Of a stretch of 64,000 nucleotides of DNA, positions 9,279-60,992 are shown one piece after another. Made by a program: the position numbers and the translations under genes. The notes beneath the pieces are model-generated. The model was not told where the DNA came from. It did no database searches and saw only the letters and a program-made list of their open reading frames with translations. The DNA is from Basidiobolus meristosporus CBS 931.73. Lineage: Eukaryota > Basidiobolomycota > Basidiobolomycetes > Basidiobolales > Basidiobolaceae. The first letter of the stretch is position 1. Each line of letters begins with the position of its first letter. The stretch spans positions 124,001-188,000 of the forward strand of contig MCFE01000004.1 in NCBI GenBank assembly GCA_002104905.1. The letters run 5' to 3'.

Positions 9279-9288
9279 TAGGGGAGAA

Positions 9289-10944: not shown

Positions 10945-11313
10945 TGTTGAAATATTGGACTATTTGGTATCATTCAGCAGCTAAAAATTTACTTAACAAT
11001 TCTAGGCTAGTCTTAGTCACTGTAGGACTCATTTACTGCCTTAACTTTGCCACTTTCTCCAGATATATGATCTTATGATTATTCCCCTATAGTCAGGATC
11101 AAATTAGCACTATTACCAAACATTATGTACTAACCCTGAAACTGTTACAGAATGCTCCTGAATATTGAGAAACCCTCCCTACTTAGTGTTGCAGCTGTAT
11201 TACTTCTACAAAGGTATAAATACTGAGCTTCTTTATTAATAAACAACAGTTCAACTATTATCACTATTTCTTGATAAGTTCCTTATATCCAAATCACTTC
11301 TTAAATTGCAACA
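10945..11313 (+). repeat. 5' LTR of C2
   Basis: This 369-bp LTR starts TGTTGAAATA and ends TTGCAACA. The TATA-like GTATAAATACTGAGC is near 11213-11228, with AATAAACAACAG downstream. Confidence 0.9.
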
Positions 11314-11325
11314 GGTTATGAGCCC
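11314..11325 (+). other. C2 primer-binding site (anticodon arm of initiator tRNA-Met)
   Basis: GGTTATGAGCCC directly follows the LTR. Its reverse complement GGGCTCATAACC is the anticodon stem-loop sequence of fungal initiator tRNA-Met (CAU anticodon). Priming from an internal half-tRNA site is established for Drosophila copia and yeast Ty5. The match is to the known yeast tRNA and is read directly here. Confidence 0.8.
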
Positions 11326-11349
11326 CGATTGCCTTAATCTATTCTAAAG

Positions 11350-15609: not shown

Positions 15610-16246
15610 GTCTACACATCCAGATATTGCAGTGGCAGTTGGAATAGTCAGTTACTTTATGCAGAATTATGGATACAATCAAACTGCAGCAGTTAAGCAA
15701 ATTTTCAGTCATCTACAAGGCACCATAAGTATGATACTGGAATTCTCTGGAGCAGCAAATAGGCAAATATTTGATGGCTATAGTGATTCAGATTGGGGTA
15801 GGGATCTGATTGACAGATGCTTTACCACAGGCTATGTATTTCTTTATGCTGGTGCAGCTATTACATGGAATTGCAAGAAACAACCAACTGTGGCCCTATC
15901 TACAACTGAAGTAGAATATATGGCTGCATGTCAAGCATCTAAGGAGGTTATATGACTACAAAAATTAAAAGACTTGGGTTTTAGTTAAAATGAACCAACA
16001 TGTATTTACAATGATAATCAAAGTTATGTTTTGTTAGCTAGACATCCTACTAATCATGCCAGAACTAAGCACATTGATATGCAGCATCACTTTGTGAGGG
16101 AAGCTGTAGTAAATAACTTAGTAGAGTTAGTGTACTGCCCAACTAACAAAATGGTGGCAGATATATTGGCAAAACCACTAACTAGGCCACAATTTGAGAA
16201 TCTCAGGGAGGAATTAGGATTAAGAAATTATTTAGTTGAGGTGGAG
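15610..16246 (+). pseudogene. C1 RNase H remains
   Basis: This piece begins at GTCTACACATCC, within five bases of where C1 stopped at 10937 when both are aligned to C2. It carries the Copia RNase H domain (SDSDWGRDL, STTEVEYMAAC, HARTKHIDMQHHFVREA) with several stops, and ends in a polypurine tract before the 3' LTR. It completes the C1 internal region. Confidence 0.85.
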
Positions 16247-30094: not shown

Positions 30095-33000
30095 CTCCCC
30101 CTCAACTAAATTATTTCTTAATCCTAACTCCGCTCTGAGATTCTCAAATTGTGGTCTAGCTAGTGGTTTTGTCAATGGACTTGTTCTATTGGATAGTGCC
30201 ACATTGAGCCATGGGTGCCAAATGATGCCATAGTGTGCCAGGGAGGCCAAGTGAACTTATACTTGGCCACAGAGTGTAAAACATAGCTCCGCATCTTCAT
30301 GCAAAGCAGCCCCTGTGTTTCACCTATTGTGTTGGAGAAAATCCATTTTTTGACCTTGTTTTCTGGATCAATGTTGTGCAGGGTGTGTGAGAGCACAGAA
30401 GGACTGAAGACATGCATCTAGTACTTAATACCCATGGCACTCTGAATCTAGCTCCTGTGGCCTGTATCATGTCACAAAAATGAATGGCACTATCTTGGTC
30501 CACTGGTACTATCTGGCATCATAAGTGCTTTGTATAGGTCTTACTTTTTGGCTAACATCTAAATATAGTGCCTGATAGTACCAGTGGACCAAGATAGTGC
30601 CATTCATTTATGTGACATGATTCAAGCCGCAGGAGCTAGATTCATAATGTCATGGGTATTGAGTACCAGATGCATGTCTTCCATCTGCTTGTGCTCTAAC
30701 ACATCCTGTACAACATTGATCCAAGAAAAAAGGTCAAAAAATGGATTTTCTCCAACACAATGGGTGAAACACAGGGGCTGCTTTGCATGAAGATGCGGAG
30801 CTATGTCTCACACTCTGTGGCCAGGTAGAGGCTCATTTGGCCTCTCTGGCACACTATGGCATCATTTGGCACTCATGGCTCAATGTGGCACTATCCAATG
30901 GAACAAGTCTAATATATCTGCCACCATTTTGTCAGATAGACAGTAAACTAACTCTACTAAGGTATTTTCTACAGCTTCCCTCACAAAGTGATGTAGTATA
31001 TCTATGTGCTTAGTTCTGGCATGATTAGTAGGATTCCTAGCTGATGAAATACAACTTTGATTATCTTGGTAAATACATGTTTGTTCATCTGAATTAAAGC
31101 CCAAGTCTTTGAATAATTTCTGTTGCCATATTGCCTCCTTAGTTGCTTGGCAAGCAGCTTTATATTTAGCTTCAGTTGTAGATAGGGCCATAGTTGGTTG
31201 TTTCTTGTAATTCCAAGTACTATCTGCACCAGCATAAAGAAATAAATACCCAGTGGTAGAGCATCTGTCAATCAGATCTCTACCCCAATCTGAATCACTG
31301 TAACCATCAAACTTTTGCCTATTAGCTGCTCCAGAGTATTCCAGTACCATATTTATGGTACCTTGTAGATATCTGAAAATCCACTTAGCTACTCTAATTT
31401 GCTCTGATCTATAATTCTGCATGAGTTGAATAACTGTTCCAATTGCCACTGCAATAGCAGGACATGCTGACACCATTGAGTACATAAGGTCACCCATTAT
31501 TGATTGATAGGGAAAGTTTTGGTCCATATTTGAGCCGTTTTCATCTAAAATTGGCTGAGATTTGCTCAATTTAGATTATTGTCCATAGGGATAGCTGCAG
31601 GCTTGCAATTTTCCATTTTGAAGGGTCTAAAATTGTCCCTGATGTACTTAGACTGATTCAGCATAATTTCTGCTTAGGTATGTCAAAATTCACTTTAATT
31701 CCATGGAACTAGCCCAATTTTGCAAGATCTTTCATCTCAGACTTGCTGATGAGATCTGATTGTGTCTGTTTAAGTGGCTCCTAGTCACTTGTAGTTATTA
31801 TTAGGTTGATCACTCCCTTCTTGAGCTGTTTCACCTTTATACTCTGATCTGCAGTGCTACATATGAGCCCAGTCTCCTCAAGATTTGTGTCAATATTGTT
31901 ATACCATGCTCTAGGTGCCTGCTTAAGCCCATACAACAATTTTCTAAGTCTGCACACCTTATGGGGGCCTTTTGGACTGGTAAACCCTCTGGTTGCTCCA
32001 TATATATAGTTACTTGCAAATCCCCATTAAGAGAAGCTGTTTTGATGTCTATTTGGTGTAGATCTAGACTGTGCTCAGCTGCCAGGGCTAGAACTGTACT
32101 AATGGAGTTAAACATGGCAACCAGAGCAAATGTTTCTTTAAAGTCTAGTCCCTGGATCTGAGAATAGTCTTTAGCCGCCAATCTAGCCTTGTACTTATCA
32201 ACAGTACCATTTGAGGTTATCTTGATTTTGTAGACCCATATACATCTATTGGCTTTCTCCCATTTGGTAAATCTACAAGTCTCCATGTTTTTGCTTTGAT
32301 CAGTGATTGGTACTCCTCCTGCATGGCTTGTTGCCACATAGTAGCTTCTGGACTTTGTATTGCCTGTTCCAGATTTGGAGGTTTGGCACATGACACAAGA
32401 TTAGCTTCTTCATGGTGATTACATATCTACCACCAGGTCCAAGGGGCATTTCTTATTCTAGTAGATCTCCTAACAGGAATAATCTGCTCTGATCTGGAAC
32501 TGGTAGAGTTATCTTCTGTATCTGGCTGAATCTGGTGCATATCTTCTTCATAAGTGTTGATTGCATCATCAGCTAGCTGGCCAATGATTTCTGTGGCTTT
32601 CTGATATGAATTCTCCTCAAATACAATCTCCCTGCTCTTGATCAGCTGCTGCATTCTGCCATCATATACTCTATATCCTTTAGTATCATCACAATACCCA
32701 AGAAAGATCGCCTTTTTACTCTTTGGCTTCAGCTTTGAGCATTTTTTGACAGGGATGTAATAAAGACACCACTTCCAAAGATCCTGAGGTGATGGAGATC
32801 TGGGTTTTTGTATGTGTATGGTTCAAAGGGTGTAGAATCATGTATTGCTGTTGATGGGCATCTATGCTTGATATATATCACAGTAGCAGCAGAATCAGCC
32901 CAGAACCTGTAGTCTATTCCCTTATCATGTAGCATAGATCTTCCCTCCTCTACTGCTGTTCTACTTGCACATTCTGCTACTGTATTTTGCTGCAGAGTAT

Positions 33001-34711
33001 GTGGAACAGTGGTCTGTTTAAGTATACCAGTATATGAGAACTTTATTGCAAACTCCTTTGAGCAGTATCCCCCCATTGTCACTTTGAAGTATCTTCAATT
33101 TACATCCAGTTTGTGCTTCTGCCATGTTCTTGAAGTGGTTAAACATCTCTAAAGCCTCATTCTTTGTTTTGAGGAAGTATACTCCTGTATATCTTGTCTT
33201 GTCATCAATAAACCTCATAAAGTATCTCTTGGCTCCAAAGGACAGTGTTCTCATGGGCCCACATATGTCTGAGTGTACAAAAGTCAATATTTTGGTGGTG
33301 TTGATGCCTCCTGAGCTCCTGAAGCAATGCCTAGCTTGTTTGCCAGATGAACATCCCTTACAGACTCTCAATATGATTGAAATTGAGTAACTTGAGCCCA
33401 AAACAAGCTGTTTTATCACCAATTGGCACATTCCTACTCCCCAATGTGTCCTAGCCTTGTATGTCATATCTTCCAGTTAGTTTCATCAGTTTCAGCAATG
33501 TTGGCATACTGAGGTACAGTGAACTTGCATTGTAACTTGTATACATTGCCATCTCAGATTCCCAAAGCTAATTTTTGTCCATTTTCACTTAATATTGAAC
33601 AGTTTAGCTTAGTAAAAGCAAATTTCTGTCCCTTAGCAGCTCCTTTACTGACTGAGAGTAGGTTCTTAGATATTCCAGCTTAGTACAGTATGTCAGTCAC
33701 TTTTGTTGCTGTAGCCCTTGAGATATCACTCATATTTAGTAGTATAGACCCACTGGTGGTAGCTTCCAGTGCAGAGTTGTCTCCCAGATGAACCTTTCTT
33801 ATGGGAATAGTCTTTAAGTTGCTGAACTACTCCTGTATACCACAAATATGCTGTGATGCTCCATAGTCAATATGCCAATGATTACTTTGGTTACTTGCAC
33901 TCTCTTGTACAGTTACAAATAACTGTTCATCAGTAGTTATATGGTTTGCCTGCTCCAGTTATGGTTTTTTGTCTACTTGCTACTTCTTGCATTCTCTTGC
34001 CCAGTGTCCTGGCTTCTTACAGTAGTTTCAGCAACCAGGTTTTCTTTGGTTTTGTTGCTTCCCCTACTTTTCTGTGTGCCTTTCAGAGCAGAATAAAGCA
34101 TTGTCTTCAATCTTTTCTGCTTGGTCGTTACATCTGAGTTCTTCATGGAGAAGTCTTCCATTGACATAGTCTAAAGTCAAATTGTCTTCTCTGCTTTCAA
34201 AAGAAAGTATGTGCAGTTTATACTTGTCTGGTAGGCTGCAAAGCAGGCAGAGTATCTTTTCTTCCTCATCTATACCAGCATGGATACTGTGAAGTTCTTC
34301 TTCAAGTGTCTCCATTCTGGTAATGAGTTGAAGCATGTCATCATCTGGCTTTTTCCTCATATGGAAGAACTTTTGTTTTAAATAAAGCTTGCTTGATACT
34401 GACTTTGCTCTAAAGATCTTCCCTAAGGATATCATGCTGCTTTGACAGTGTCTGAAGCATGGATTTGTTCAATGAAGGAATCTTGCACATTGATACATAT
34501 AGCATAAAGGCTGTCTCTCCTTCTCTGGAAATTTCTCCACTTCTTCTGCTGTTCCTTGGGGCTCAACTTCTTTTCCTGTTACTATATTCCAGAGCTTTCT
34601 TTCCTCAAGGCGGATCTGCTTCTTGATTGTTGAAGGTCTGTAATTCTTCCCATCCAGCCTCTCCTTTACAGGGAAGATACTTGTATTGTTCTGTTTGCTG
34701 GTAGAAGTCAT
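30095..34711 (-). pseudogene. C3 gag-pol remains with the same RT deletion as C2
   Basis: Read leftward: gag from about 34711, zinc knuckle near 34000-34040 (decayed), protease and GAG-pre-integrase near 33400-33900, integrase 33467-32730, reverse transcriptase 32390-31700, RNase H 31569-30950 and 30176-30115. At 31807/31808 the sequence GTGATC joins AACCTAATAATAACTACAAG exactly as in C2 at 14262, so the YVD of the catalytic YVDD box is missing. The nonsense TAG shortly downstream (AGTGACTAGGAGCC) is also shared with C2. Numerous private stops and frameshifts are present. Confidence 0.88.
30177..30910. mobile_element. Foldback element FB-C (734 bp) inserted in C3
   Basis: It is flanked by AAT (30174-30176 and 30911-30913). 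The empty site from C2 (reverse complement GTCAATATGTCTGCC) confirms the insertion. The left arm (30177 to about 30518) and right arm (about 30572 to 30910) are inverted copies, near 88% alike by eye, around a spacer of some 50-75 bp. Termini are GGACTTGTTCTATTGGATAG and its counterpart. No coding capacity. Confidence 0.9.
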
Positions 34712-34735
34712 CTTTAGAATAGGTTAAAGCAATCA

Positions 34736-34747
34736 GGGCCCATAACC
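34736..34747 (-). other. C3 primer-binding site
   Basis: The minus strand reads GGTTATGGGCCC after the LTR. This is the same anticodon-arm site of initiator tRNA-Met as in C2, with one base changed. Confidence 0.7.
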
Positions 34748-35116
34748 TGTTGCAACTTAAGAAGTGAATTGGATAAAAGGAGCTTATCAAGATATAGTGA
34801 TAATAGCTGAGCAGCTATTAATTCATAAAGTGGATCAGTATTTATACCTTTCTAGAAGTAATACAACTGTAACACTAAGTAAGGAGGGTTTCTTGACAAT
34901 CAGGAGTATTCTGTAACAGTTTCAGGATTACTACATAGTGTTTGGTAAAAAAGTGTCAATTTGATCTTTGCTATGAGAATAATCATAGGTTCATAGATGT
35001 GAAGAAACTGGCAAAGTTAGGGCTGCAAATAAGTCCTACAGTGACCACAATTAGTCCAGAATTGTTAAGTAAATTTTTTGGTGCTGCATGATACCAAATA
35101 GTCCAATATTTCAACA
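34748..35116 (-). repeat. 5' LTR of C3
   Basis: 369 bp. On the plus strand it reads TGTTGCAACTTAAG to CCAATATTTCAACA. Confidence 0.9.
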
Positions 35117-35484
35117 TGTTACAAGTCTTGATATAAGAGTTGTAGAGTAATAGGGAGTTTGGCTAGTATTGTATTCACTAAAGTGTGAATTGATCTTTAT
35201 TGAGGTTTCAGCAGGTCCTTGAATACATTTTGCTAGAGGTATTGCTGACTGATTGTATTTCCTAATATAGTCTGTGGCTGATGACTCAGATAATTGCATT
35301 ATCATTGCCCATGATACAATACTTAATATATCTACTTCTGTATGATAAGAATCTGCTAACTCATCTTCTTACTAATAATACTGATCAGATAGATGACATT
35401 GAAAAACTGATAGGCTAAGCATAAAACTAAATGATTTGACTAAAAACTGAATCAACTTAAACATTCAAGTGGTAGATCATAATA
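35117..35484 (-). repeat. 5' LTR of G3
   Basis: 368 bp. On the plus strand it reads TGTTACAAGTC to GATCATAATA. Its length equals that of the G1 and G2 LTRs. The last bases are mutated from AACA. Confidence 0.85.
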
Positions 35485-35861
35485 TTTAATCATTTCAGAG
35501 TGAGAGAAGAGCTTACATTTGCATATCTAAGGAGATTCAGCATATCAGCAAGTAAAAACTAACAAATGACATATATGGAGAAAACAGCACAATAGGTAAA
35601 ATAGCCAAGATACTAATTAATCCTTAGTATATTCAAACAAGAAGACATTCACTGAGAGAAATGTGTATGGGGCATTATTACAAGTAAATAAAGCAAGATA
35701 CACACTTTTCTGAGCAATGTAAATAAAATTGAATAAGATTATCAGTAACTGTATCCTGCCACTGGCATGATGGCAGTCATTATAGTACCAGAGAGCACCA
35801 TATGGTGGCAGATCAATCCAGCACTATAGACAGGCTAGGACTAAGTGGCATTTACCAACAT
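35485..35861 (+). mobile_element. Harbinger-type transposon, 3' remnant
   Basis: It matches 24217-24598 (the transposase C-terminus, GAAGACATTCACTGAGAGAAATGTG-type segment, CTGCCACTGGCATGATGG, and the terminal ACATAACAAGTTT). Only the 3' third survives, next to the G3 LTR. Confidence 0.75.
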
Positions 35862-38800
35862 AACAAGTTTACTCCTTGAATCTTTTGGTAAATACAATCT
35901 GAATATCTTAGGTAACTATTGCACTATAAGAAATAAATGTGACAATCCCCTCAGAAGGCCATCACAAAAATAAATTATCATGGCTAAGAGTTATTGGTCC
36001 CATCAGGAAATCATGCAAGGACCATTAAAAAGAATTGTACTTCACACTTTGCATAAACTCAATCAAAATATTTCATCACAATTATAGATAAGTGGCATTT
36101 AATTGATTTTCTGCCAATTCTTTTGCTTTTTGATCTGCAACACTCAATCATCTTCTGCATTTGTGTACCTTGATTGACTATTACCCTGTTTCCAACACCC
36201 CTTACTTCCTGACTCTACCAAAGCTCTTACTTCTCATACATACAAATTGGCTTTTATATTAAAGCTTCAGTTATAACCCAATTGATAGTTTTGCTGACCT
36301 ACAGATGTCTCTATAGCCAATACTAATATTAAGCACAACCCCATACTTAACAAGTAACTTCATTAAGATCCACCACTTATAAACATTTCTGTTGTAAAGT
36401 CCTTTTTCCATGACTTTGGCATGTGCCCTACAGCTCTATGTCATTGTTCACTCACTGGTTCCCATATATTCTGGCTTCAGCAGGCATTGGAAGGTCTGGT
36501 ACTTTATCTGCCAGCTTTGCAATAAGTCCTTGCAATACTCAGGTATGCTTTTTTGCACACTGTGCCTAATGAAGTGCTGTAACCTCTTGGCGTGTATATT
36601 AGTGTTCAAAAATTCCACTGTAGGCACTGTGATAATCATTTGACTACTTGATATTGCTAACTTGTCTGTTAGCAATATCTCCACTCTCTCTACAATAAAG
36701 GGCACAAAGTCAGTGGTAGACAAATTACATTTCTCTGCAAGCTCATTTACCTCATTGGAGTGTAGCTCATCTCTCTAGGCTTCCAACTCTTGTGAAAACA
36801 GCTGTTGTCTTGTTTGAGATTGTTGTTACCTAATACAGGACTCAGCCTGTTCTGGGCCAATAGTGTTAGTTGGAAAGTACTACAGCTTTTTTCTTGTGGT
36901 TCCCTGCCTTTGGATTGGGTAGACTTCTTTCTCTTTACCTTGCCTTTGTTAGAGTCCTAATTTTTACTCCTACTTTGGCGAAGTGCTTCTTGTATTGTGA
37001 TACTTTTTCTCCATGATAGATGTTGCACAGGCACATCTGTTTCTGCCTGCCTGTCCCTTACCACCACTCTGGTGGCAACCAAACTATCTTTGCTTCTTGC
37101 TTTGTGCTTTCAGCCTTGCTTGATACCCGGTCCTGCAAGAGTCATGAGCTTTTATCACTGACAGGACTGTTGCAATTTAAGCAGTGATTTGGATATAAGG
37201 AACTTATCAAGATATAGTGATAATAGTTGAACTATTGTTTATTTGTAAGGAGGATCAGAATTTATACCTTTGTAGAAGTGCTACAGCTACAACACTAAGT
37301 AAGGAGGCTTTCTTAATATTCAGGAGTATTCTGTAACAGTTTCAGGGTTAATACATAGTGTTTGGTAAAAAGTGTTATTTTGATCTTCACTATAGGGGAA
37401 TAATCATAGAATCATAGATGTGAAGAAACTGGCAAAGTTGAGGCTGCAAATAAGCCCCACAGTGACCCAGACTAGTCTAGAATTGCTAAGTAAATTTTTA
37501 GCTGCTGAATAACACCAAATAGTCCAATATCTAAACATGGACCTTGAATGCTACTTTGACAGCATGATTCTTGCATTGAGCTACATATTTATCTTGATAA
37601 ATGCTGAGCTGATGCATCTGTCATTTCTTGCTTGTCCCTTGCTGGCACTCTCCGGGCTGCCTGGAACCTCTTGCTGTGACATTGAGCCACTGAGTATCTT
37701 CTTTGCAGCCAAGATATTCTGTGTTCTACTTGGGATTCTGATTGCTCTACATCAATTATTTAATCTCTCTGTCTCTGGATTATGTCTTGATTGCTCTGGG
37801 CCATCTCATCTATCCTGTAAGCCACTGCACCTATTTGCCTCAGTTGTACTTTGGTATAAGCTGACAACATACTTGCTAATATTGGTGGTGGTATTTCATG
37901 ATAGTCATTGGCTAGCCTTCTACTAGAGGAACTACTTTTGCTACATTCACATCTGCATGACTTTTGTGATCAGCTTGTGGTTCTGCTAATTTTCTCACTT
38001 GCCTTCTTTACTGAGAGCCTGAGAAGTTTGCATACTTACCTTCAGTCAGTGCACTGTTGACATGTCTTTTTAGAATATAGCACTGCTGGGTTCACTGAAT
38101 GTTAGAGCAAGCTGTTGTCCAACTGTTCTTCTGCTAAGGTTGGCAATGCAGCTTGGCTGGGAATCAGACGCCTTTACTATATCTTTTTAGAGCATATATA
38201 TGGAAGTAAGTCATACCAAATGGGAAATTGTGTTACATATACATGTTGTATGTGATGCCACAGCTTTATTCAAAATGCTTATTATGCTGGGTCATTATTG
38301 AATCTTCCATTCATGCAAGTTCAATATCTCAGATAAAAGACTCTCTTCAAATAGCATGGGTACTGACAAAAAAGTGATTAAATAGTGGTACATTTCTGAG
38401 TGTCAAGCTGTTTGCTCCATGGAGAAGATGACTTTGTTTCAACACCACAAGAGAGGGAAATACCATCTAGTGGTTATTATAACAAGCTTTGCAGCCATGA
38501 AACATGCCAATGGCTTGCAAAGTATCGAAAGCATCACAGCCAGTGCTTTGCCGTACAAGTCATCCTTGAGCAATCATCAGTCACTACTGTATCAATAATA
38601 TCTTGCTGGCCACTTGAAACTTCTGCACCAGCACCAAGCTGTACTCATCAACTTGCACAAGCTGATTTAGGTGGGTTTGGGCTACCTTTTGGCTCACATC
38701 AGCCTTCTGAATATGGCTTTTGGAGTGATAACTATGAAGCAGAAGGCTTGCTGATGAATTAGGAGCCTATTTCCTCTCACAATAATGCCCACCATGAGCC

Positions 38801-38950
38801 TGGCACATTCCCAAGATCCAATGAGACAACACCCACAGAAAAAATGTTAAGGATAATTATGCAGTCAAGTGAGTCCAGTAACCCATTTACTGGTGAATGA
38901 TTTGTTGTTGTGACTAGAAAAGTGGCTTACTTCCACCAATAGCAGTGATG
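35862..38950 (-). repeat. Unclassified dispersed repeat X, copy 2, split by a solo Copia LTR
   Basis: Parts 36050-36760 and 37680-38510 match the two halves of X copy 1. The minus strand reads an open stretch at 36448-36723 and, beyond it, a lysine-rich segment near 36900-37140 (KIVWLPPEW, RKRKKSTQSKG). This could be a nuclear or DNA-binding protein, but I recognise no family. The outer limits are uncertain. A solo LTR interrupts it at 37168-37537. Confidence 0.5.
37168..37537 (-). mobile_element. Solo Copia LTR (C1/C2/C3 family)
   Basis: 370 bp. On the plus strand it reads TGTTGCAATTTAAGCAG to CCAATATCTAAACA. It is flanked by AGGAC (37163-37167) and TGGAC (37538-37542), a 4-of-5 match. No internal sequence is attached. 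Confidence 0.85.
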
Positions 38951-39859
38951 GGAGCTTCAAGGATTTGCTGCTACCTTGTGCCAAAATCATTGCTCAATGC
39001 AACATTCTATGTGCTTAGTACAAATGGGAAACTATCATGCAGCAGGCAATACATGACCCAGAGACTGTTCTGTTACTGGCATGTGTTAACAGTTGTATCA
39101 CATTCACATCACAAAATGTCACCAGCGCAAGGTTTCCAACATGTCAATAATCCACCACTGCAGGAGGACAAAAATTTTCATTCTGTGTGTATAAGCCAGT
39201 AATACTCAGTCTGAAGATGCTTGTATAGGCAAACATATAGTGTGATGCCAGAAAGTATTGCCCTTAGTATCAATTAAGTGCAATTCATTGAGATACTAGA
39301 TAGATATACTGGAAGTGAAATGGAGAATTAGAAGATCCACATGATGTTCACTTGTTGTTTTACTGAGTTGCAACACAAGATTGGTACTGATTGCAGAACT
39401 ACATAAATCTGACTATTTGGTCATTATTAAGCAAGTCTTAGGAGTAAAGGTGCCAAGCTTACGCACATTTAGGTAAGCTTCAGATTTTCCTAAAATCCCA
39501 AACTTCACTGATCCCTAAAAATTAACAGATATCATACAAACTAATTTTCAAGTAAATATTGAGAAATATATCACTTAATCAAGTGCTAGTTCAAAATACA
39601 TCAATAATATGGTGGACCTCTAATTATTTCAAAACAAGCATATCGCTCATACTTGATAGCAAACTTTACATCCAATAAAGTAGCAACAGTTACTTTGAGG
39701 GTATATATGATAATGCCTTTACCTTGGCACTTGATGGATTCTCATTAAACAAATACTCTGGCAGCAAATCCTGCAGGCCACTTATTCTCATCAATCACTA
39801 TCTGCCACCTATTATATGGTATCAGAGCCAAAATCTGATGGTAGTCTCACTGGTATTTG
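38951..39859. other. No gene recognised
   Basis: AT-rich DNA with only short, unconvincing open frames. Probably repeat-derived. Confidence 0.35.
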
Positions 39860-40470
39860 GGCCTAATTCACTGCCAAGCCTGGATAGCTGCCTGTATCCA
39901 TTGGTGGATGAGTTTTGTATGCCATCCCAAAGGATACAAGTAAATGACTGTTATGTTAAATTGCATATTATTATCTGCATTGGAGATACCCCAGCCATCA
40001 GCTAAACAGACCACTTTTCTGGGCACAATGGAGAGTATTGCTGTCAAACATGTGAGATCCAGGGGTTGTGCTGCATAACTCACAAACATTACTATTTTCC
40101 AAGCACCAATATTAAAGACATCATCTTTCCATAATGAGATTGTATCAAAGTCTGCATACAATTGCAGCTAAGCTGGTAAGCTGCAAGTCATTGACAGAAT
40201 ATAGAATTAATCAAAACCCGAGCTACTAAAGGTATAGGGAGTCTATTAGTGCAAAAGCTTTCCACTGGGAGCAATGCATTTGCTCTTCAACAATATCCCA
40301 TTGCTGGTGACTAAGTAGTACATGGGGCAATTCAAGCTCAGTGAGTCACTTGAAATACCAGCAAAATTTGAAAGAATTGCCAAGATATTTACAAGCATCC
40401 ACTACCTAGAGTATTTTCCCCAAGCCCAAATCATTATACATATATATAAGCAAATATACTAATACAAGTA
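39860..40470 (-). repeat. Unclassified dispersed repeat Y, copy 2
   Basis: The reverse complement matches about 2150-2611. It continues beyond the point where copy 1 is cut by C1. No protein family is recognised. Confidence 0.6.
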
Positions 40471-40849
40471 CCTGATAAATCAGATATGTACTTATGCAAG
40501 TGGCCTTCTGAGGCAATTTCCAATTAGAGTACATTGAAATCATAGGTAGTTACATGTTGACATTATTGTAATATTTATATCTGAAGCAGATTACCAATGC
40601 CAACTTGAATCATCTATAGCTTTTATGCAAGGAGTTTAGTGTTGAGATTTCAGTAGCTATAGTACAAGCATAAAGCTGGGTGCATGGATCTCTGCAGCTA
40701 CTGCACCCATCTTTACTCCATCTTGGCTAGTGTGTGGAAAATGTAGCACCTTGCTTCACCTTATGAGAGTTTCCTTTAGAGCACATGTGTGAGGACATAT
40801 AAAGGGGAGTCAAGTTGCAGGTACCACCATATCCCAATCTCTTCAAGAC
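40471..40849. other. No gene recognised
   Basis: Sequence between repeat Y and the Copia C4 remains, with no supported feature. Confidence 0.3.
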
Positions 40850-42799
40850 TATCATCCTGTATTTGGTTTGTATCCACACCATGCTTCAGATGGAGTAGTG
40901 TCACAAAGTATTCTGTAATAACTCTTATTTTGAAGTTATATAGCTGTGTTAACTGATTCTACCCAAAAATCACAGGATAATTTCTGATCATAGATCAAAG
41001 TTCTTGTCATATCAATTATTGTGCTGTTTGCATGTTCTGCTGATCCATTTTGCTGTGGGGAGTATGGCACAGTAGTCTCTTGCTTTATCCCATGAATTTT
41101 GCAGAAGTGGATGAAGAGCTTGAGGTATACTCTCCACCATTGTCAGAGCATATTTTCATGATTTTTCACCATTTTCTCTCTCCACCATGACTTTGAACTC
41201 CCTGAGCTTAGACAGAGCTTCTTCCTTTCTCTCCATGAAGTAAACCCGCGTGAATTCTGTATAATCATCAATAAAAGTGATTAAATACTTCATCCCACCT
41301 AAGGACAAATTTTGCATAGGTCCACACAGATCTGAGTGAATTAGATCTAATTTTTTCTTAGTTTTGATTAACCCAGAGCTCTTGAACAGTTGTCTGGCTT
41401 GTTTCCCATATATGCAGGCCTCACAGTGGTCCAAATTAGCTGGGGGATCAATCTTTACTCTGGAAATCAGCTGATCTTTGATCATTTTGCACAAATAATC
41501 AAAATTTATGTGTCCAAATCTCCTGTGCCAAAGCATTGCTGTTTCTTCATTTTACCTGCTTATAGTGGCTTCCAAATAAGATTGAATATAAGTCAACTTG
41601 TATAGATTCTGATCACTGATACCCAAAGCAATATGGGCACCATTTTGATCAGTCATCTTGCATCCAGAATTGCCAAAGCTGAAACTGAGTCCTTCTGCAG
41701 TGGCCTTGCTTACAGATAGTAGGTTCTTGGCTATTTCTGGTACATGGAGTACTTCTTTAAAGGTCAGTGTATGGCTTCCTTCACTGCTTCTAAGGTTTAC
41801 TAGGATAGTTCCTTCTCCCACTGCATCAGGTGTCCTATAGTCACCCATGAAAACCTTCTTAATTGGAATTTCTTGAAATTGGGTAAAAGTTCTTTTAGGT
41901 GTGCAAAGTGTTGAGATGCTCCAGAGTCAATATGCCACATCTAAGAATCCTTGTTTTTGGTCATATTTAGTGCAGATATGAATAGTCTATCTTCAGCTGT
42001 TGCAGCATTTCCATGTTCTGGCTTCTTTTGATGATTATCTCTCTTTTTGAGACACTGGTCTGTTGTGTGTCCTTTCCTTTTATATTGGTTGCAAAACAGG
42101 TTTCTGTTGCCTTTGTAGGGTCTTGGGTACCTCCTTTGCTGGTTATCATTACTTATTAAAGCATTTTCTTCTTCCATCTTATTGGCGCTTGATTTTTTTG
42201 ATTCCTCATCCAGGCACCTTCCATATAAGTAATTTAAGGTCAAATCTTTAGTTCTGGACTCTAGGGCTGATACAAGGCTCTGAAACTTGTCTGCCAGGCT
42301 ATTCAGGATGGTAACTATTATATCCTCATCAGTAGGTGGTACACCCACAGATTCCATCTCATCTTCCAGCAGGGTAATTCTGTTAATTAGGTTTTTCATT
42401 TCTTCTCCTGGCAGCATCTTTAGAGTGAAGAATTTTTGTCTCAGATACATTTTCTTAGCAGCTGAACATGACTGGTAGGTGTTGTCTAATGCCTTCCAGG
42501 CATTCTTTGCCATTTTTGCTCTTGAGCATTGAATTAGCAATTTGTCCTAAACATTGAGGCCAATGCAGTTATAGGCACTTTGTTCTTTCTTCTGGTACTT
42601 TAAGGCTTCCTCTCCCACATTTTTAGGAGGGCATTCTTCTCCCATGACAATATCCCAAAGGCCTCTCTCTTGTAGCAGCATCTTCATCTTCACCTTCCAC
42701 ACTTGGTAGTTAGATCTATCCAACTTTTCAGCAGAGGGAAAAATTCCAGTAATAGCAGTAGTAGACATTGCAGAGAGTGACAGCTTGGGGTTCATAGCC
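40850..42799 (-). pseudogene. Copia family 2 (C4) gag to integrase remains
   Basis: Read leftward from 42799: a gag domain (NYQVWKVKMKMLLQERGLWD, then a UBN2-type segment 42540-41941) with a knuckle reading CNQYKRKGHTTDQC, so the first Cys-x2-Cys is altered. The protease region follows near 41950-41850, a GAG-pre-integrase (LWHRRFGHINFDYL near 41530), then an integrase (HSDLCGPM near 41330, SDNGGEY near 41145) with a frameshift near 41150. Reverse transcriptase and RNase H are missing. Proteins are clearly related to, but distinct from, C1-C3. Confidence 0.85.
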
Positions 42800-47948: not shown

Positions 47949-47955
47949 TATAAAA
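47949..47955 (+). promoter_or_regulatory. TATA box of LRLTPE gene 1
   Basis: TATAAAA is 74 nt upstream of the ATG at 48023. Comparable boxes precede all seven genes of the cluster. Confidence 0.7.
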
Positions 47956-48022
47956 ACTGCCTTTGCCAGCAGTAGAATAGCAAACCATCAGCGTCACCAG
48001 CATTCCCTACTAGCCTTACAAG

Positions 48023-48208
48023 ATGAGAATCAACGAAGTGTCCAGCATCGAAACCATTACTTTCCTTCGCCTCACTCCCGAAGAATGCGACCAGGCCACT
48101 ACAGGATTGGAGACCGAGGACCAAGCCCCGCTTGCCGAACCAGTATTCAATGGCTTCAAGTTCATGCGGTTGACCCCTGAGCCCATCGAAGGAGCCCCCA
48201 AATGTTAG
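48023..48208 (+). CDS. LRLTPE-family small protein 1
   Basis: A 61-aa intronless gene of a family I do not recognise. FLRLTPE is at residues 14-20 and FMRLTPE at 47-53, exactly 33 residues apart. The linker is acidic and Pro-rich, and there is no signal peptide or membrane segment. It is most similar to gene 6 (ECDQ versus DCDQ after the first motif; the PL-EP-NGF-FMRLTPEPIE block around the second), so these two are a recent duplicate pair in opposite orientation. Codons for the repeated motif differ (CTTCGCCTCACTCCC versus ATGCGGTTGACCCCT), showing selection on the peptide. It starts at the first ATG after a TATA box (ACAAGATG context). Function unknown. Confidence 0.8.
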   Translation: MRINEVSSIETITFLRLTPEECDQATTGLETEDQAPLAEPVFNGFKFMRLTPEPIEGAPKC

Positions 48209-48489
48209 CTTGGCCATTTTAAAGCACAGAGTGTGTTTGGGACGGCTCCGCTAACATTCCTCCTTTTGTACTATAATAATCATTTTCGTTGAAAATGAAC
48301 ACTGCAGTCAGGAGCAAACTTATGTAATTGGGATTCCCATACGTGAGGCTATAAATAATTCAACCAATTTTTGTGAATAAACCAAATCTATACCATAATT
48401 ATTATACAGTTCGTTAGGCTCCCGTTAATTCAAGAGCTCATAAAATATATTTATACGATGGATATTCGAGTACACGGTTGGCATGGCAA

Positions 48490-48702
48490 CTACATATCAA
48501 CGGAGGAGCGTCGCGGTGTAAAGTCTGAGATATTGCTATGATCAAACTCTGGGGTCAAGCGAAGGAATACCAGCTTGGTAAGTACACCATCGTTTATTTT
48601 CTCGGTGGTTTCGGGCAACATTGGGACGTAGGTATCATTTGGTTCCTCTGCAACCAGGCGAAGGAAGGTAGTCGGTTGATTCTTATGAATTAGCTCTTGC
48701 AT
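48490..48702 (-). CDS. LRLTPE-family small protein 2
   Basis: 70 aa, minus strand. The first motif is degenerate (FLRLVAE, residues 13-19) and the second is FLRLTPE (46-52), 33 apart. The N-terminus MQELIHKNQPTTF matches gene 3 (MQSLIHNNQPMAF) and gene 7 (MQNLIQNDQAFQF). The tail RRSSVDM is close to RRSSIEM of gene 3 and fits an RRxS kinase-site pattern. A TATAAAA box on the minus strand (48756-48762) lies 54 nt before the ATG. No intron, no signal peptide. Function unknown. Confidence 0.8.
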   Translation of the reverse strand: MQELIHKNQPTTFLRLVAEEPNDTYVPMLPETTEKINDGVLTKLVFLRLTPEFDHSNISDFTPRRSSVDM

Positions 48703-49504
48703 CTTGTCTTATGTAGCTGATATGGATTGATGGTTGGGGATGAGCACCAGCAAGGTTTTATACAGCTGTGCTATGCACCGGTCAAGATAAGAACCCGAGT
48801 GGATAGAGTACTGTTGACTTGGAAAGACTCAAAACCAGAATGCTTATCTGTAGGGGGAGTTCGTCCAAAGCTCAAGACTCACACCCCGTAATACCAGTAG
48901 CTATTTGGTGGGTTCGGCGTGGATATGACTCGACCTGCAACGCCACGAGTGGTGGATGCAATGAATCAGTCATGAATCCAGTATATGGAAAGGGCCGATT
49001 ATCTTCAATCTCAAATTTAAAGCGAGAAGTCGCATTAGGGTTCATCAGCAATAGAGACTGATCCCAGTGGTGGTTGAAACGCTCAAAATCATCCCATCTT
49101 TCACATCCGTCCACATTACCAAGCATCATTACCACTCGGGAGGGAGGTTTTAGAATCACCAGATAACTAGTTTTTCTCATTATGAGATGGGTCATGTACA
49201 AATAGGAAATTCCAGTATTTTCAGGATGAGATATCAGAAAAAAGGGTCTAGTAGCACATCTGGATTTCCCAGTAAACCATAAACGTAAAGTGAGATTCAC
49301 TTCAGTAAATTAGGCTAATTCGTTTTCAGTTCAAGATAATATTTTTCACCCCAGTTGGGAATAGTATCTTTTTTCCGGTTTTTCATCGGTATGTAAAATA
49401 TCGTAGATCAATCAGGTTACGATGTTCACAAAGTTTCTTACAGATTTATTGAAGTTTACAAGCAATGGACCTTCGGCATAGAAAAATGATGCGTTTCAAG
49501 TTAT
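48703..49504. other. Intergenic between LRLTPE genes 2 and 3
   Basis: The first part (to about 48770) is the promoter of gene 2. The rest has no gene that I can support; an open minus-strand stretch at 48872-49300 shows no family features. Confidence 0.4.
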
Positions 49505-49726
49505 TTACATTTCAATCGAGGATCTTCGGGAGGTCTTCTGTGATTCGGTTGTCATATCAAACTCGGGGGTTAACCTCATGAAGACCTTATCTTCGTGTTG
49601 CTTGGTCTCTGCGAAGCTCTTGGAGTCAATCAGCTCTAGCAGTACAGGAAGCTCTACAGGGACTGGTTCTTCAGGACTTAACCGGAGGAAAGCCATAGGT
49701 TGGTTGTTGTGGATCAAGCTTTGCAT
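49505..49726 (-). CDS. LRLTPE-family small protein 3
   Basis: 73 aa, the longest member. FLRLSPE is at residues 13-19 and FMRLTPE at 49-55, spacing 36. The linker is Pro/Val/Leu-rich then charged. The C-terminus RRSSIEM is shared with gene 7 (WRSSIEM) and close to gene 2. A TTTAAATA box on the minus strand (49791-49798) lies about 65 nt upstream of the ATG. Same strand as gene 2 with about 800 bp between them, so probably separate transcripts. Function unknown. Confidence 0.8.
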   Translation of the reverse strand: MQSLIHNNQPMAFLRLSPEEPVPVELPVLLELIDSKSFAETKQHEDKVFMRLTPEFDMTTESQKTSRRSSIEM

Positions 49727-49829
49727 GCTGGGCGGTAGAAGTCTGGACGGAGAGGTAGACTGGATGAATCTCCAGGGTAGCTGGGAGGAGTATTTAAAGA
49801 CTTTGCGATCATCTACGTTTCATTTATAA

Positions 49830-50534
49830 TACAACTTGCATGATGCTGGTTTAGATTAAAAAATAACATGAAGAATACTGGGAAATCAATGGCGCGATTG
49901 ATGAAGCATACAGCCACAGATCATGGAGGAAGCAATTTTGAAACGAATCACATCAGCTTCCCATGATGATTAGCATTCAATGTAAGCATCATTCGTTCGT
50001 GGGAACTGGTAAACTCAGCACTTTCCTCTAGAGGCATCTTGCTGTTCCGTTAGAAACATATTTCCTCTAGGGGAAAACCGGCAGATCTAACACGCACCTT
50101 CCTCTAGAGGATGACGGTTTCGTAGCTTTGATGATTAATGTCCCTCAAAGTGTGGAATGGCACCCAACAACCCGCATTAATTTAGTGGAATTATAATTAG
50201 TAATTTCATTGATTGTAACCAGGGCTGTCAAGCCTAATTACACGCGAAGTCACTATATCATTCCCCATAAATAGCCATCAATACCTGTTCCCGAGACCAA
50301 CACGGATTTAACTCTGAGATCACAGCAGCGTGAGAACACCACCTGCCTGTATCAGACTGAAACTTCGATTTCCTCTAGAGGCAACCAGAGTTGTGGATTC
50401 TTTGTATTTCCACCTTGCTGAAACAGAGTTCCTAATTCGTCCGTGTCAATTGAAGCAACGAAGAAAGAGAGTCGCCCATTTCGTACACTCCGATGTCAAA
50501 TAAAGCTAAGCCTTCTCCTCGCCCATTTTGAAGG
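49830..50534. promoter_or_regulatory. Intergenic region with four CCTCTAGAGG-type palindromes
   Basis: The 10-bp palindrome CCTCTAGAGG occurs at 50025-50034, 50101-50110 and 50372-50381, each preceded by TT. A near copy, CCTCTAGGGG, lies at 50064-50073 within TTTCCTCTAGGGGAAA. Four copies in about 360 bp upstream of gene 4 are far more than chance would give. They look like binding sites for a dimeric regulator, which is inference. Confidence 0.6.
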
Positions 50535-50588
50535 TATAAATCCCCCGAGCTCCTGCCTAACTATCAACCATCAAGTCCAGCCAACGTC

Positions 50589-50756
50589 ATGCAATACCTG
50601 CTAAGCTCGGAGACTGTCGGGGTTTTCACCTTCCTTAGACTCACCCCCAATGAGGTTCCATCTGTGCCCAGCATACCGAACACCTTTTCGACGCCGTTGG
50701 ACACCCCTGATGGCTTGACCTTTATGCGATTAACACCTATGGAGACTGAGGATTGA
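50589..50756 (+). CDS. LRLTPE-family small protein 4
   Basis: 55 aa, the shortest member. FLRLTPN is at residues 15-21 and FMRLTPM at 45-51, spacing 30. Both motifs end in a substituted residue, so it is the most divergent copy. The linker is rich in Pro, Ser and Thr. TATAAAT at 50535-50541 is 54 nt before the ATG. It is downstream of the CCTCTAGAGG cluster. It lacks the RRSS tail. No intron or signal peptide. Function unknown. Confidence 0.75.
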   Translation: MQYLLSSETVGVFTFLRLTPNEVPSVPSIPNTFSTPLDTPDGLTFMRLTPMETED

Positions 50757-51157
50757 GATCTTGGCATCACTTTGCATGTAAATAATCATTGTCATCACAA
50801 AGCCTCCTGAATATCGAGTTGAAGAATAAAGTGACGTTTGCCATTTTCCTGAATGCACTTGCTTCTAATATGCACTGAGGTGTATAGAACTGTTCCAAGC
50901 GTTCTATGAGCTACTCTACACCAAGGTATCAAGAGATTACTTCACGTGAAAAAGGGTTTGCCAAGGCTCACCTATCCCTAACTCGTATCTCAAACAATTA
51001 AGATAAGCCTGCATCCGGCTACATAACTATGCAAGATCCTAAATGAATATTGCTATTATCTACCCTTCTTGCTTGAATCCTTTGAAACAGCTTACTCGGA
51101 GACAAGATATAGTTGCATCGGAGTGGAGTAAGTAACGGAATAGAGAGTGTTCTCAAG
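50757..51157. other. Intergenic between LRLTPE genes 4 and 5
   Basis: Contains the 3' flank of gene 4 (an AATAAA at about 50826) and the upstream region of gene 5. No other feature seen. Confidence 0.4.
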
Positions 51158-51214
51158 TATTTATAGATCGACCTCTCTACAACCCTACTAACACAACAAT
51201 TTGCTTTCGTTACC

Positions 51215-51406
51215 ATGCACATCCAACCGAACAACGAACAGCCTTTGACCTTCCTTCGTCTTACTCCTGAGGAATCTTCCGAGTCTTTGGTTTCCGTTGC
51301 CCCCACCCAGGACCATGATGTCAATCTGGAGCCGGTCAGTAATCATGGCTTCTTGCGTTTAACCCCGGAGCATGAGACACTTACGGACAACCACTCCAGC
51401 GCCTGA
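51215..51406 (+). CDS. LRLTPE-family small protein 5
   Basis: 63 aa. FLRLTPE is at residues 13-19 and again at 46-52, exactly 33 apart and both perfect. The start MHIQPNNEQPLTF keeps the NNQP-type N-terminus of genes 2 and 3. The linker end (LEPVSNHGF) recalls genes 1 and 6. The second motif is followed by HE as in gene 7. TATTTATAG at 51158-51166 is about 57 nt upstream of the ATG (ACCATG context). No RRSS tail. Function unknown. Confidence 0.8.
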   Translation: MHIQPNNEQPLTFLRLTPEESSESLVSVAPTQDHDVNLEPVSNHGFLRLTPEHETLTDNHSSA

Positions 51407-51609
51407 GTGGACCGTTTTAGCAACACAATCAGTCAGATTATATGTATGTATTGAGGTAAAGATTCAAGATAATCCGTGAATAAATAGGATAATTTGTTTA
51501 TTGTGTAATGGATCAAGTCAGATATGTATAGACTCATTGTTGCGATATGAGTGTGCTTTGAGGAAATGAATGTATTGTACAAGATGAGCGAGTGAAGGCG
51601 AAAAAGCAA

Positions 51610-51798
51610 CTACATCTCGCCCAGTGAGCATCCAAGGCTGACTTGTCCTGCGGACTCGATAGGCTCAGGGGTTAACCGCATGAAGGTGAATCCGTTGTAG
51701 ATGGGCTCAGAAAGAGGCACTTGGACTAAGGCATCAGATCCGAAGGAGACCTGGTCACAATCTTCAGGAGTAAGACGAAGGAAGGTCATGGTTTGCAT
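51610..51798 (-). CDS. LRLTPE-family small protein 6
   Basis: 62 aa if translation starts at MQTMTF. FLRLTPE is at residues 6-12 and FMRLTPE at 39-45, 33 apart. The open frame extends upstream to 51909, but that extension overlaps a TATA box (TCTATAAAA on the minus strand, 51865-51873), and the shorter start matches the MQ starts and 5' leader lengths of the other genes. It is a close duplicate of gene 1 (DCDQ, PLSEPIYNGF, PEPIE) but in opposite orientation. The C-terminus ends in GEM, like the EM/DM ends of genes 2, 3 and 7. Function unknown. Confidence 0.8.
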   Translation of the reverse strand: MQTMTFLRLTPEDCDQVSFGSDALVQVPLSEPIYNGFTFMRLTPEPIESAGQVSLGCSLGEM

Positions 51799-51909
51799 TT
51801 TCGGTAGGCTAGCGGCTGGGTAGAGCTTCGGGGGTGATGATTCCTCAAACCAGGGAAAACGGCGTTTTATAGATGGCCAGCAAAGCTGTAATTGGCATAT
51901 GATGGTCAT

Positions 51910-52381
51910 CGGAATTCCAATGAGTTACTATATCAAGTGGGGAAGATAAAGTAGGCTATGTCACTTTGCTCCACATGATCTTTGCTGACTAACATGGCAT
52001 GTCAAGGAACAACGGTTCTGAGCATCGCCGCAATTGAATTCCAATCCCAATTTGGATCTGTCAGGAATATGACCAATTCTGTATATCATACATACCTAAT
52101 TAGTCTGGTTGAGTAGTGTTCCGTGTAACCGAATGCTCATCAATCTCTGTGATAAGCCCCAATGCCATGTATAGATGACAGTTCATTATGACCCAACCCT
52201 CGACCCAACCCTCACTCTACCTAGTATCAGCATTATGACCCAACCTTCACTTCGCCTAGTATCAGGATCGCACGGAAAAACTCAAGCTCGTCACGCACCG
52301 ATCGGCTTTGCACGATTATCTACCATCCATGGCCCTTTTACCCTGAGGCCCGGCTATTTCGGAGCTGGTAGCTTACACTAG
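51910..52381. other. Intergenic between LRLTPE genes 6 and 7
   Basis: No supported gene. A short direct repeat (ACCCAACCCTC and related, about 52191-52250) is present. It serves as the upstream region of gene 7. Confidence 0.4.
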
Positions 52382-52430
52382 TATTTAAACAAGGTCCATG
52401 GAGTGAAGAAAAGGCACCGATCATCACAAC

Positions 52431-52637
52431 ATGCAAAATCTCATTCAAAACGACCAAGCTTTCCAATTCTTGCGTCTCACTCCGGACGAAGCCCCTGTTG
52501 AAGTCACATCAGCACGGGAGAACATCATCGCAGCCTGGGAATCGCCGCTGTACTCGGAGGGAGCCTTCTTGCGATTGACACCAGAGCACGAAGATGTCTC
52601 GGACTATTCATCTTGGCGAAGCTCAATCGAAATGTAG
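52431..52637 (+). CDS. LRLTPE-family small protein 7
   Basis: 68 aa. FLRLTPD is at residues 13-19 and FLRLTPE at 46-52, 33 apart. The N-terminus MQNLIQNDQ and C-terminus RSSIEM place it with genes 2 and 3. TATTTAAA at 52382-52389 lies 49 nt before the ATG. An AATAAA-type signal (CAATAAAT) is near 52673. It is the last member of the cluster and the nearest to the RhoGAP gene. Function unknown. Confidence 0.8.
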   Translation: MQNLIQNDQAFQFLRLTPDEAPVEVTSARENIIAAWESPLYSEGAFLRLTPEHEDVSDYSSWRSSIEM

Positions 52638-59127: not shown

Positions 59128-60992
59128 ATGATTACCGAGTCCAAGCTCACGCTGAACACGCTGAACCCCAACAAGCGGAGGGTGATGTCGATCAGACTCT
59201 CCGAAGAATTGTTGGAGCTCCTGAGCCAAGGCAAAGAGAAATCCATCAAGATCCAGTTCGGCACAGATCAGGTAGATTCCAGTCTTTGGGTCGTTTTTGT
59301 TGCTTTTCGTTAACGGCTGGCCCTCCTGGTAAAGAAAATTCGGGTGGGAAACGCCTCCTTCGACTACAACAAAGTAGATGAAACGCAACCGGTGGAAATT
59401 TACCAGAAGAATCCATCCTCAGAAAACCTAGAGGTGATCGGTTACCTGACTCATAAACTGACCGTGAGGAGAGAAATGGGGGACAAAACAAAAGAAAGAG
59501 CGGCCAGCCGGATGGACTCGAGAAAGTAAGTGATTGGTCGTTGAGCGATCCCTGCTGCTCCTACTAACCTAATCTCCTTAGGAGCGTACTCCTCAACAAA
59601 GACAACAAAGAAGGTATCGATCAACGTTAACCCTTGTGGTGTCAAATGGTATTTTATATTCACTGTCATTTTGCAAAGTTGAACCGCAGAAAATGCGAAG
59701 ACCACCCCAGCTGAAGAGCGCCCCCATCACCACTAGACGCCTAGCCCCCACATCCACAACCCAATCATTGGCTTCCTTGGTCACTTCGAAAGATGGTGGA
59801 AAGCCCGGTAGCAGTATCCCGTTACGTACGCGAATTCTGCAGCTACTCGCCATCAATCCAATGAGTCAGGGGAATTTGGCTATGACCATGAAAGTCCCCA
59901 AGGATGAGTTGATCAAGACATTGAATTCAGTGAGTCCCCTTTGCAAATTAACTGGATGATCATCACTCCGGCTGACTGTAATTGCGCTTAGGTCGCGACG
60001 GTGACAGGGGATATTTGGTCCTTGAAAGATGACTCATTCAAGGAAGTCAAAATCAAAGATTGGGAAGCTTATTCATCTAAAGAGAAGGAAACGGTCTCGT
60101 TAAATGCATTAAAGGCATTCGACAGCCTCAATTTACCATCGGACGCACCTGAGAGAAGCGGCCTGATACTGCCACCCAAGCCAGAATCAGAGCCTACACC
60201 CGACCGTGATAAGCCCAAGGGAGCGGCAGAAATGAATGAAGAAATCCAGCAAAAGGACTATTCCCGCAGAAGAATCGCCGAGACGCCCAAAGAGGCACCA
60301 TCCGATGCGCGTAGCACGACAAGAGGCACATCTTCCAAACCCAGCAGCCTGGCTAGGTCGAGCTCCAACGTGAAGGAAACCTCGGCCGAGAACACACCTA
60401 CACCGACGACACGAAAACCTCGAGCACCCAGAGACCCCTCTTCTCTTGGGGGATATAGAATTCCCAAGAAGACTGACTCGCGAAACGCTGAATCTGGAGA
60501 GATATCGGAAAAAGAGCCGCTGCCTGCCAGCAAGAACAGAAGCAATGGATCTGCAGTAGAGACCAATAATTCACATGCGGCCAGCACTGGGACAGCTCGA
60601 TCTGACCACGGTATGATCCAATTTGTTCACTCACCCACTCACCAATACGGTATTTACCTGTTGATGCAGCCAGTCGAAAGCATCCGGTGCGCGTGTACGT
60701 GGTCAAGACCTCCATTGAGTATCACGACCTAGTGGCGCTGTTCCAAGTCAAGAACATGGAATACCAGAGCTTGAACGAGAAGATCCACGCCAAAAAACCC
60801 CAACTCGAGCGCTTGGCCGAGCAGGCGCGTAAGAGTGTCGACTCGGAGAAGCAGGAGCTTGCGGCCGACATCATGAAGCTCCGCTGCAAAGAGATCTCCC
60901 GTTGGGCGGATGAGTTTACTGAGCTACACTACGACCTAGAGGCTATCTCGAAAGAACTATCCAGAGCTAGTGAGCAAGGCCTTGCTGACTAG
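59128..60992 (+). CDS. RNA polymerase II elongation factor ELL homologue
   Basis: Exons 59128-59271, 59335-59525, 59582-59613, 59679-59929, 59992-60610 and 60670-60992 encode 519 aa in frame. An in-frame upstream ATG at 59035 would add 31 aa. The N-terminal part contains an ELL winged-helix-like segment (RTRILQLLAINPMSQGNLAMTM, and further WSLKDDSFKEVKIKDWEAYS). A long Ser/Thr/Pro-rich linker follows. The C-terminus is an occludin/ELL-type helical domain (MEYQSLNEKIHAK, PQLERLAEQ, DIMKLRCKEISRW). ELL binds RNA polymerase II and suppresses pausing, in metazoans within super- and little-elongation complexes. The 32-nt third exon is short but is needed to keep frame. Confidence 0.8.

Follow-up and report, generated by a model that had tools for sequence, protein, structure and literature searches.

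The window studied here, by which we mean the whole stretch of 64,000 nucleotides from Basidiobolus meristosporus CBS 931.73 (contig MCFE01000004.1, bases 124,001–188,000), holds a 4.6-kb cluster of seven short frames, g1 to g7 from left to right, whose predicted proteins each carry two motifs of the FxRL type. Judged by their residues, the two motifs are unequal, FLRLxxx[DE] standing first and [FY][LM]RLTP second. We propose, with a probability of about 0.45, that the proteins are disordered and bivalent, that they would dock onto an intracellular partner with two sites, and that 5 of the 11 members compared carry a candidate kinase site in the tail. Docking in a disordered protein is suggested because short conserved motifs sit in a fast-evolving, charged chain of 55–74 residues, and a two-site partner or a strand-pairing fold because the two motifs, whose conservation differs, stand 30–37 residues apart. 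It is usually difficult to separate lineage-specific small genes from noise; here several lines converge, and the seven frames look like genuine genes because the evidence from paralogues, from selection at the codon level, from the structure of the promoters and from counterparts in B. ranarum agrees.

Two unequal motifs in seven small genes

An earlier note, drawn up from the letters of this DNA, had described seven single-frame small genes, and all are present in the window sequence, each a single open frame from ATG to stop (7/7). On the plus strand lie g1 (48023–48208; 61 residues, motifs at residues 14 and 47), g4 (50589–50756; 55 residues, motifs at 15 and 45), g5 (51215–51406; 63 residues, motifs at 13 and 46) and g7 (52431–52637; 68 residues, motifs at 13 and 46, C-terminal WRSSIEM). 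The minus strand carries g2 (48490–48702; 70 residues, motifs at 13 and 46, C-terminal RRSSVDM), g3 (49505–49726; 73 residues, motifs at 13 and 49, C-terminal RRSSIEM) and g6 (51610–51798; 62 residues, motifs at 6 and 39), the last with a further in-frame ATG upstream at 51909. Spacing is 33 residues in g1, g2, g5, g6 and g7, 36 in g3 and 30 in g4, as the earlier note had it. The nearest paralogues are g1 and g6, each to the other, with 62% identity across g1 residues 8–59; g2, g3 and g7 have a common start, MQxLI, and a common end, RSS[IV][DE]M. The last residues of g1 to g7 are C, M, M, D, A, M and M. An Rfam scan at the gathering threshold and a tRNA scan returned nothing.

The motifs were compared in 11 proteins, namely the seven of the window and four from Basidiobolus ranarum (P0002–P0005), with two further database matches, P0006 and P0007, excluded. 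Two FxRL-type motifs 30–37 residues apart, in a protein of 55–74 residues, were found in 11 of 11. In motif 1, F, L, R and L are each present in all 11 and are followed by T (8), S (2) or V (1), then P (9), A (1) or E (1), then E (7), D (2), N (1) or V (1), and then E (8) or D (3). Motif 2 opens with F (10) or Y (1) and M (6) or L (5), continues with R, L, T and P in all 11 and with E (9), M (1) or Q (1), and is free thereafter. In motif 1 the T and P can vary, g2 having FLRLVAE and g3 FLRLSPE, whereas T-P is present in 11/11 second motifs; R at position 3 is invariant (22/22 motifs). Position 8 is acidic in all 11 first motifs compared with 3/11 second motifs (Fisher P 0.001, a guide only, as the proteins are related). 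In the alignment each motif keeps 7–8 conserved residues, nine columns are invariant and one nearly so, and glycine is invariant nowhere. The earlier description of FLRLTPE/FMRLTPE or a close variant twice per gene thus stands, whereas its treatment of the two as equal does not. Its constrained spacing is borne out by the value of 33 in 8/11 proteins, within an overall range of 30–37, and its unrelated linkers are fast-evolving but not all unrelated, given g1 and g6.

It had also been said that the motif codons vary while the peptide is conserved, and across the 14 motif copies of six codons each the pooled pairwise difference was 0.78 at synonymous sites (pS) versus 0.15 at non-synonymous sites (pN). 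In the 33 bases round the motif, DNA identity among the seven window genes was 0.63 for the same motif between genes, 0.54 for the two motifs within a gene and 0.50 otherwise, and of 128 swaps of the labels motif 1 and motif 2 only two, both equivalent to the true labelling, reached the observed difference. Because the same motif across genes is more alike in DNA than the two motifs of one gene, the motif duplication would be older than the gene duplications; it probably took place within an ancestral gene before that gene multiplied, the two copies then taking different roles. Recent copying of one DNA unit is ruled out by the differing motif codons and by the identity of 0.54 within genes against 0.63 between them.

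Chance occurrence was assessed with a degenerate pattern (F, L/I/M/F, R/S, L/F, T, P, K/N/E/D) and its reversal as a control, in the genome assembly of 89.0 Mb and 1,311 contigs. The pattern was found at 18 places, 11 inside the 4.6-kb cluster and 7 elsewhere, against 11 for the control. Read in frame, the 7 outside places proved to be four catalase-like frames (FLSLTPE), so named by eye from their sequence, and three short frames (27, 9 and 61 residues). The share inside the cluster (11/18), set against the reversed control and together with this in-frame reading of the rest, rules out chance. As for the four catalase-like frames themselves (L019, L020, L021), two sit 2.6 kb apart on one contig, and one diverges from the other three past ~290 residues and stops early.

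Selection was estimated by the Nei–Gojobori method in five pairs of genes. Over 53 codons, g1 and g6 gave a non-synonymous divergence (dN) of 0.23 and a synonymous divergence (dS) of 1.55, hence a dN/dS of about 0.15, where the earlier note had counted a ratio near 1 against its own reading. For g2/g3, g3/g7 and g5/g7 dS was saturated, and g2/g7 gave dN 0.58 and dS 2.15. On these codon comparisons purifying selection is seen in g1/g6, the sole pair with dS not near saturation.

Clear relatives found within one genus

A profile search of the protein database with the seven proteins, which scored the 8,000 candidates with the most words in common, returned g1 itself (P0001), five proteins at E < 1e-5 and one at E 0.24. 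P0002–P0005 are hypothetical proteins of B. ranarum (K7432_015916, K7432_015915, K7432_015917 and K7432_015918, with motif spacings of 37, 33, 33 and 33), all from one 3,658-base contig, and were compared as protein sequences and locus tags rather than as DNA. Alignment scores pair P0003 with g2 (38/70 identical), P0002 with g3 (51/73), P0004 with g4 (32/55) and P0005 with g5 (34/57 aligned), so that the tag order 015915–015918 is the window order g2–g5. The two-motif architecture is therefore kept in a second species, and relatives in B. ranarum fit the early-diverging fungus that the earlier note had supposed. By these pairings g2–g5, at least, are older than the split from B. ranarum. No counterparts of g1, g6 or g7 were seen there in the protein-database search, the four relatives lying on a short contig, and a later gain of these three genes is possible. 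That the family is expanding, as had been claimed, is not shown, because each of g2–g5 pairs with a single B. ranarum protein and dS between g1 and g6 is 1.55.

Two matches were set aside. P0006 (69 residues, E 6e-6) is taken as convergent because its motif belongs to a 15-residue unit copied three times in tandem. P0007 (44 residues, JGI source, E 0.24) has a single motif at residue 13, and its start, MQSILDQGDPIAFLRLTPDE, is near that of g3, MQSLIHNNQPMAFLRLSPEE; as a relative it is a lead only.

Elsewhere in the genome no paralogues were found: seven single-protein searches of the contigs matched cluster members alone (7/7), each scoring 3–6 first-look candidates, so that a far diverged copy may have escaped, and a wider paralogue family was rejected on this result. 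Relatives outside the locus, whose absence the earlier note had also counted against itself, thus exist in B. ranarum and were not found in this genome. Protein-database searches with g7 or g6 alone were empty and are a weak test of absence outside Basidiobolus, because they missed even g1, 62% identical to g6. Clear relatives so far lie, on sequence similarity, within one genus. For this genus PMC7466969 describes the use of RNA-seq reads from B. meristosporus CBS 931.73 and names the genomes of B. meristosporus B9252 and B. heterosporus B8920. Pfam-A gave no family for any of the seven proteins up to E 10 (above about 0.1, HMMER discards most matches in its filters). A search of solved structures up to E 10 gave two matches, both taken as chance: a triosephosphate isomerase at E 0.46 and, at E 0.0097 and with no individual stretch passing, a designed beta-trefoil. 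The motif strings were found in no paper of the literature searched, nor, by title and start of abstract, was such a family among the papers listed on small, tandem or lineage-specific genes of Basidiobolus. The family is undescribed in the Pfam, structure and literature sources searched, in agreement with the earlier note, which knew no such family. The profile search, with its limited words and 8,000 candidates, returned one protein (g1) of the seven from this contig; this is a hint that most of the seven genes are absent from existing annotation.

Over the four species pairs, identity was 33/48 in the N-terminus, 26/32 in motif 1, 43/98 in the linker, 23/24 in motif 2 and 30/53 in the tail. 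The protein kinase A consensus is R-R-x-S-hydrophobic, and the RRSS[IV][DE]M tail of g2, g3, P0002 and P0003 is a possible phosphosite; g7 ends in WRSSIEM, without the second R of that consensus, and brings the tail to 5/11 proteins. Across the 11 proteins net charge runs from −8 to 0 and mean hydropathy from −0.71 to 0.09, the peak 19-residue mean hydropathy lies at 0.19–1.19 (0.27–0.85 in the seven window proteins), and each protein has 0–2 cysteines. The earlier statement that membrane span, signal peptide and Cys pattern are lacking accords with these values and with a hydropathy scan, made without a signal-peptide program, that found no hydrophobic N-terminal signal in the seven (for example, MQSLIHNNQP).

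Promoters and surroundings

All seven genes have a TATA-type box at −49 to −74 from the ATG. TATAAA boxes precede g1 (47949–47954, +, at −74), g2 (48757–48762, −, at −60), g4 (50535–50540, +, at −54) and g6 (51866–51871, −, at −73, between its two ATGs). In g3 the box is TTTAAATA (49791–49798, −, at −72, with an extra TATAAA at −102), in g5 TATTTATA (51158–51165, +, at −57) and in g7 TATTTAAA (52382–52389, +, at −49). In the interval −85 to −41 the count is 7/7, compared with 2.3% of random 45-mers from the 43–64 kb part of the window, for classes (TATAAA, TATTTAAA, TATTTATA and TTTAAATA) chosen post hoc. A CATC word stands 30–40 bases past the box in 6/7 genes and possibly adjoins the transcription start, and AATAAA occurs within 250 bases after the stop in 6/7, g2 having AATAAT alone; both are counts without a control.

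Between the divergent g3 and g4 (50023–50381) lie three TTCCTCTAGAGG sites (50023, 50099 and 50370) and a variant, TTCCTCTAGGGG (50062). Exact TTCCTCTAGAGG occurs 11 times in the 89 Mb, 3 of them here, against 19 for the reversed pattern, so it is not enriched genome-wide; what stands out is the clustering inside 359 bases. By eye the four sites have different flanks, so a regulator of g3 and g4 may bind there. In the 450 bases upstream of each gene, CATCAATC was found on either strand in 5/7 stretches (an equally frequent 8-mer arose in 7/200 random sets) and ATTGATG in 6/7 (matched in 10/200); both enrichments are borderline because the g6 and g7 stretches overlap, and those of g3 and g4 slightly. 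Heat-shock, stress, cAMP and GATA words were scattered in these stretches, none being common to all seven.

Upstream, the first 43 kb of the window contain Gypsy-like and copia-like retroelement frames (5163–15306 and 30880–42513; type by eye). Downstream of the cluster, Pfam matches above the cut-off mark a PH-domain frame and a RhoGAP frame, probably parts of one gene. Between g2 and g3 an open stretch of 145 codons (48872–49309, −; 107 residues from its ATG) had no Pfam match and no second copy in the genome. Farther along, the stretch 60606–60989 (+) weakly resembles the occludin/ELL homology domain, scoring E 0.0099 and 17.1 bits, short of the curated cut-off of 31.2.

Docking, its alternatives and known systems

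Docking motifs in disordered proteins typically show up as short conserved blocks within a chain that otherwise evolves fast, and the proteins of this family are probably disordered. Each motif would form a short strand-like docking element in a groove of the partner, and the two would be read jointly by a two-site partner, either a dimer or a tandem domain, with the linker as a tether. The TP within motif 2 could be under kinase control, and so could the tail, which reads RRSS[IV][DE]M in g2, g3, P0002 and P0003 and WRSSIEM in g7. As the paralogues differ in tail and promoter, they might offer one docking function under different conditions, and like other microproteins they could compete for, bridge or recruit the partner. 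We infer every step from the sequence to that partner.

Several points weigh against this reading. A motif that docks onto a common partner would be expected in other proteins, and the strict pattern found none elsewhere in the genome. The motifs are not the sole constrained part, because the N-terminus (33/48) is nearly as conserved between species as motif 1 (26/32). Synonymous divergence was saturated in 3/5 pairs tried and 2.15 in a fourth. The TATA classes were settled when the promoters had already been read, and other classes, in the interval −90 to −51, gave 4/7 genes versus 6.9% of random 40-mers.

Bivalent docking is nevertheless the likeliest reading, and a small fold comes second. 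In the latter, the two motifs would be two strands of an obligate fold, the F(L/M)RLT strands of one or two chains pairing into a sheet and the spacing being a structural loop. In favour of such a fold, the motif resembles a strand leading into a turn or the beginning of a helix (TPEE), each motif has a conservation pattern of its own, and the spacing is 33 in 8/11 proteins despite 44% linker identity between species. However, nine invariant columns and one nearly invariant are few for a fold, the spacing varies from 30 to 37, and the chains have a net charge of −8 to 0 and a mean hydropathy of −0.71 to 0.09; we regard it as unlikely. Tandem Atg8-interacting motifs (AIM, or LC3-interacting regions, LIR) would make the proteins autophagy adaptors or competitors by way of F-x-x-L cores and acidic residues. 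The LIR/AIM core, [WFY]xx[LIV], is weakly specific; it fits 22/22 motifs, which begin with F or Y and have L as their fourth residue. Y in place of F is the single aromatic change, and each of the 11 first motifs has an acidic residue at position 8. A plain AIM, though, needs neither the invariant R (22/22) nor the T-P (11/11 second motifs) found here, FxxL is common by chance, and 55–74 residues leave no cargo domain, all of which makes this reading improbable.

Least probable of all is the reading as ribosomal peptide precursors, which the earlier note had also entertained and for which no positive evidence was found. The motifs would be recognition sequences and the variable linker a released core, and a variable segment flanked by conserved motifs in a multigene cluster has the right form. 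Against it, a hydrophobic N-terminus is absent in the seven, no dibasic pair was seen by eye in their linkers, and among 10 frames scanned flanking or within the cluster the Pfam matches above cut-off were PH and RhoGAP, with no protease or peptide-modifying family (genes split by introns may have been missed). A CaaX end is the criterion for fungal lipopeptide pheromone precursors; none of the seven has one, there being no C at position −4 in 7/7 proteins. Amyloid signalling or self-assembly of the HET-s type, in which two pseudo-repeats stack as a two-rung solenoid templating between proteins, is hardly more probable and ranks below the Atg8 reading. It shares the formal design of two repeats, a non-conserved loop and position-specific repeats (r1/r2 there, motif 1/2 here). 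According to PMC4518210, HET-s-related sequences have a 21-residue repeated motif with a loop of 6–18 residues in 154/155, a repeat offset of ~27–39 compared with 30–37 here. The conserved block in the window family, however, is 7–8 residues rather than 21 and has no invariant glycine, the proteins show no further domain (no Pfam match, 7/7), and no NOD-like receptor (NLR) occurs among the 7 outside places of the strict pattern, a looser single-copy partner not having been searched for.

The fullest form of the docking proposal is doubtful as it stands: a Basidiobolus-specific module in which seven disordered microproteins, each under its own control and all using one bivalent code (FLRLxxx[DE] and [FY][LM]RLTP, ~33 apart), tune one conserved two-site partner and represent a class of interaction motif not previously described. 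The conserved residues give exact positions for a test, and finding a two-site partner would define a new docking code.

Among known systems, B. ranarum K7432_015915 to K7432_015918 are alike in their two motifs, their spacing of 33–37 and the RRSSVEM tail in the counterparts of g2 and g3, and differ in being four proteins on a short contig, hypothetical and with no function named. Yeast Sml1, Hug1 and IA3 are disordered regulatory microproteins; we know of no seven-gene array with two motifs each among them, and they resemble the window proteins in being small, charged and presumably intracellular, with no sequence relation claimed. With LIR/AIM motifs, including tandem ones (EPG5 paper, PMC7935953), the family shares an aromatic-x-x-aliphatic core, an acidic residue past motif 1 and the tandem arrangement; it differs in its invariant R, its invariant T-P in motif 2 and the lack of a W form. 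The HET-s-related amyloid motifs (HRAM; PMC4518210) have a 21-residue repeat with a conserved glycine and a hydrophobic pattern. This long repeat and its glycine are absent in the window family, whose proteins are also without an effector domain, and by the strict pattern no NLR partner was found; the likeness lies in two repeats, a variable loop and the segregation of repeats by position.

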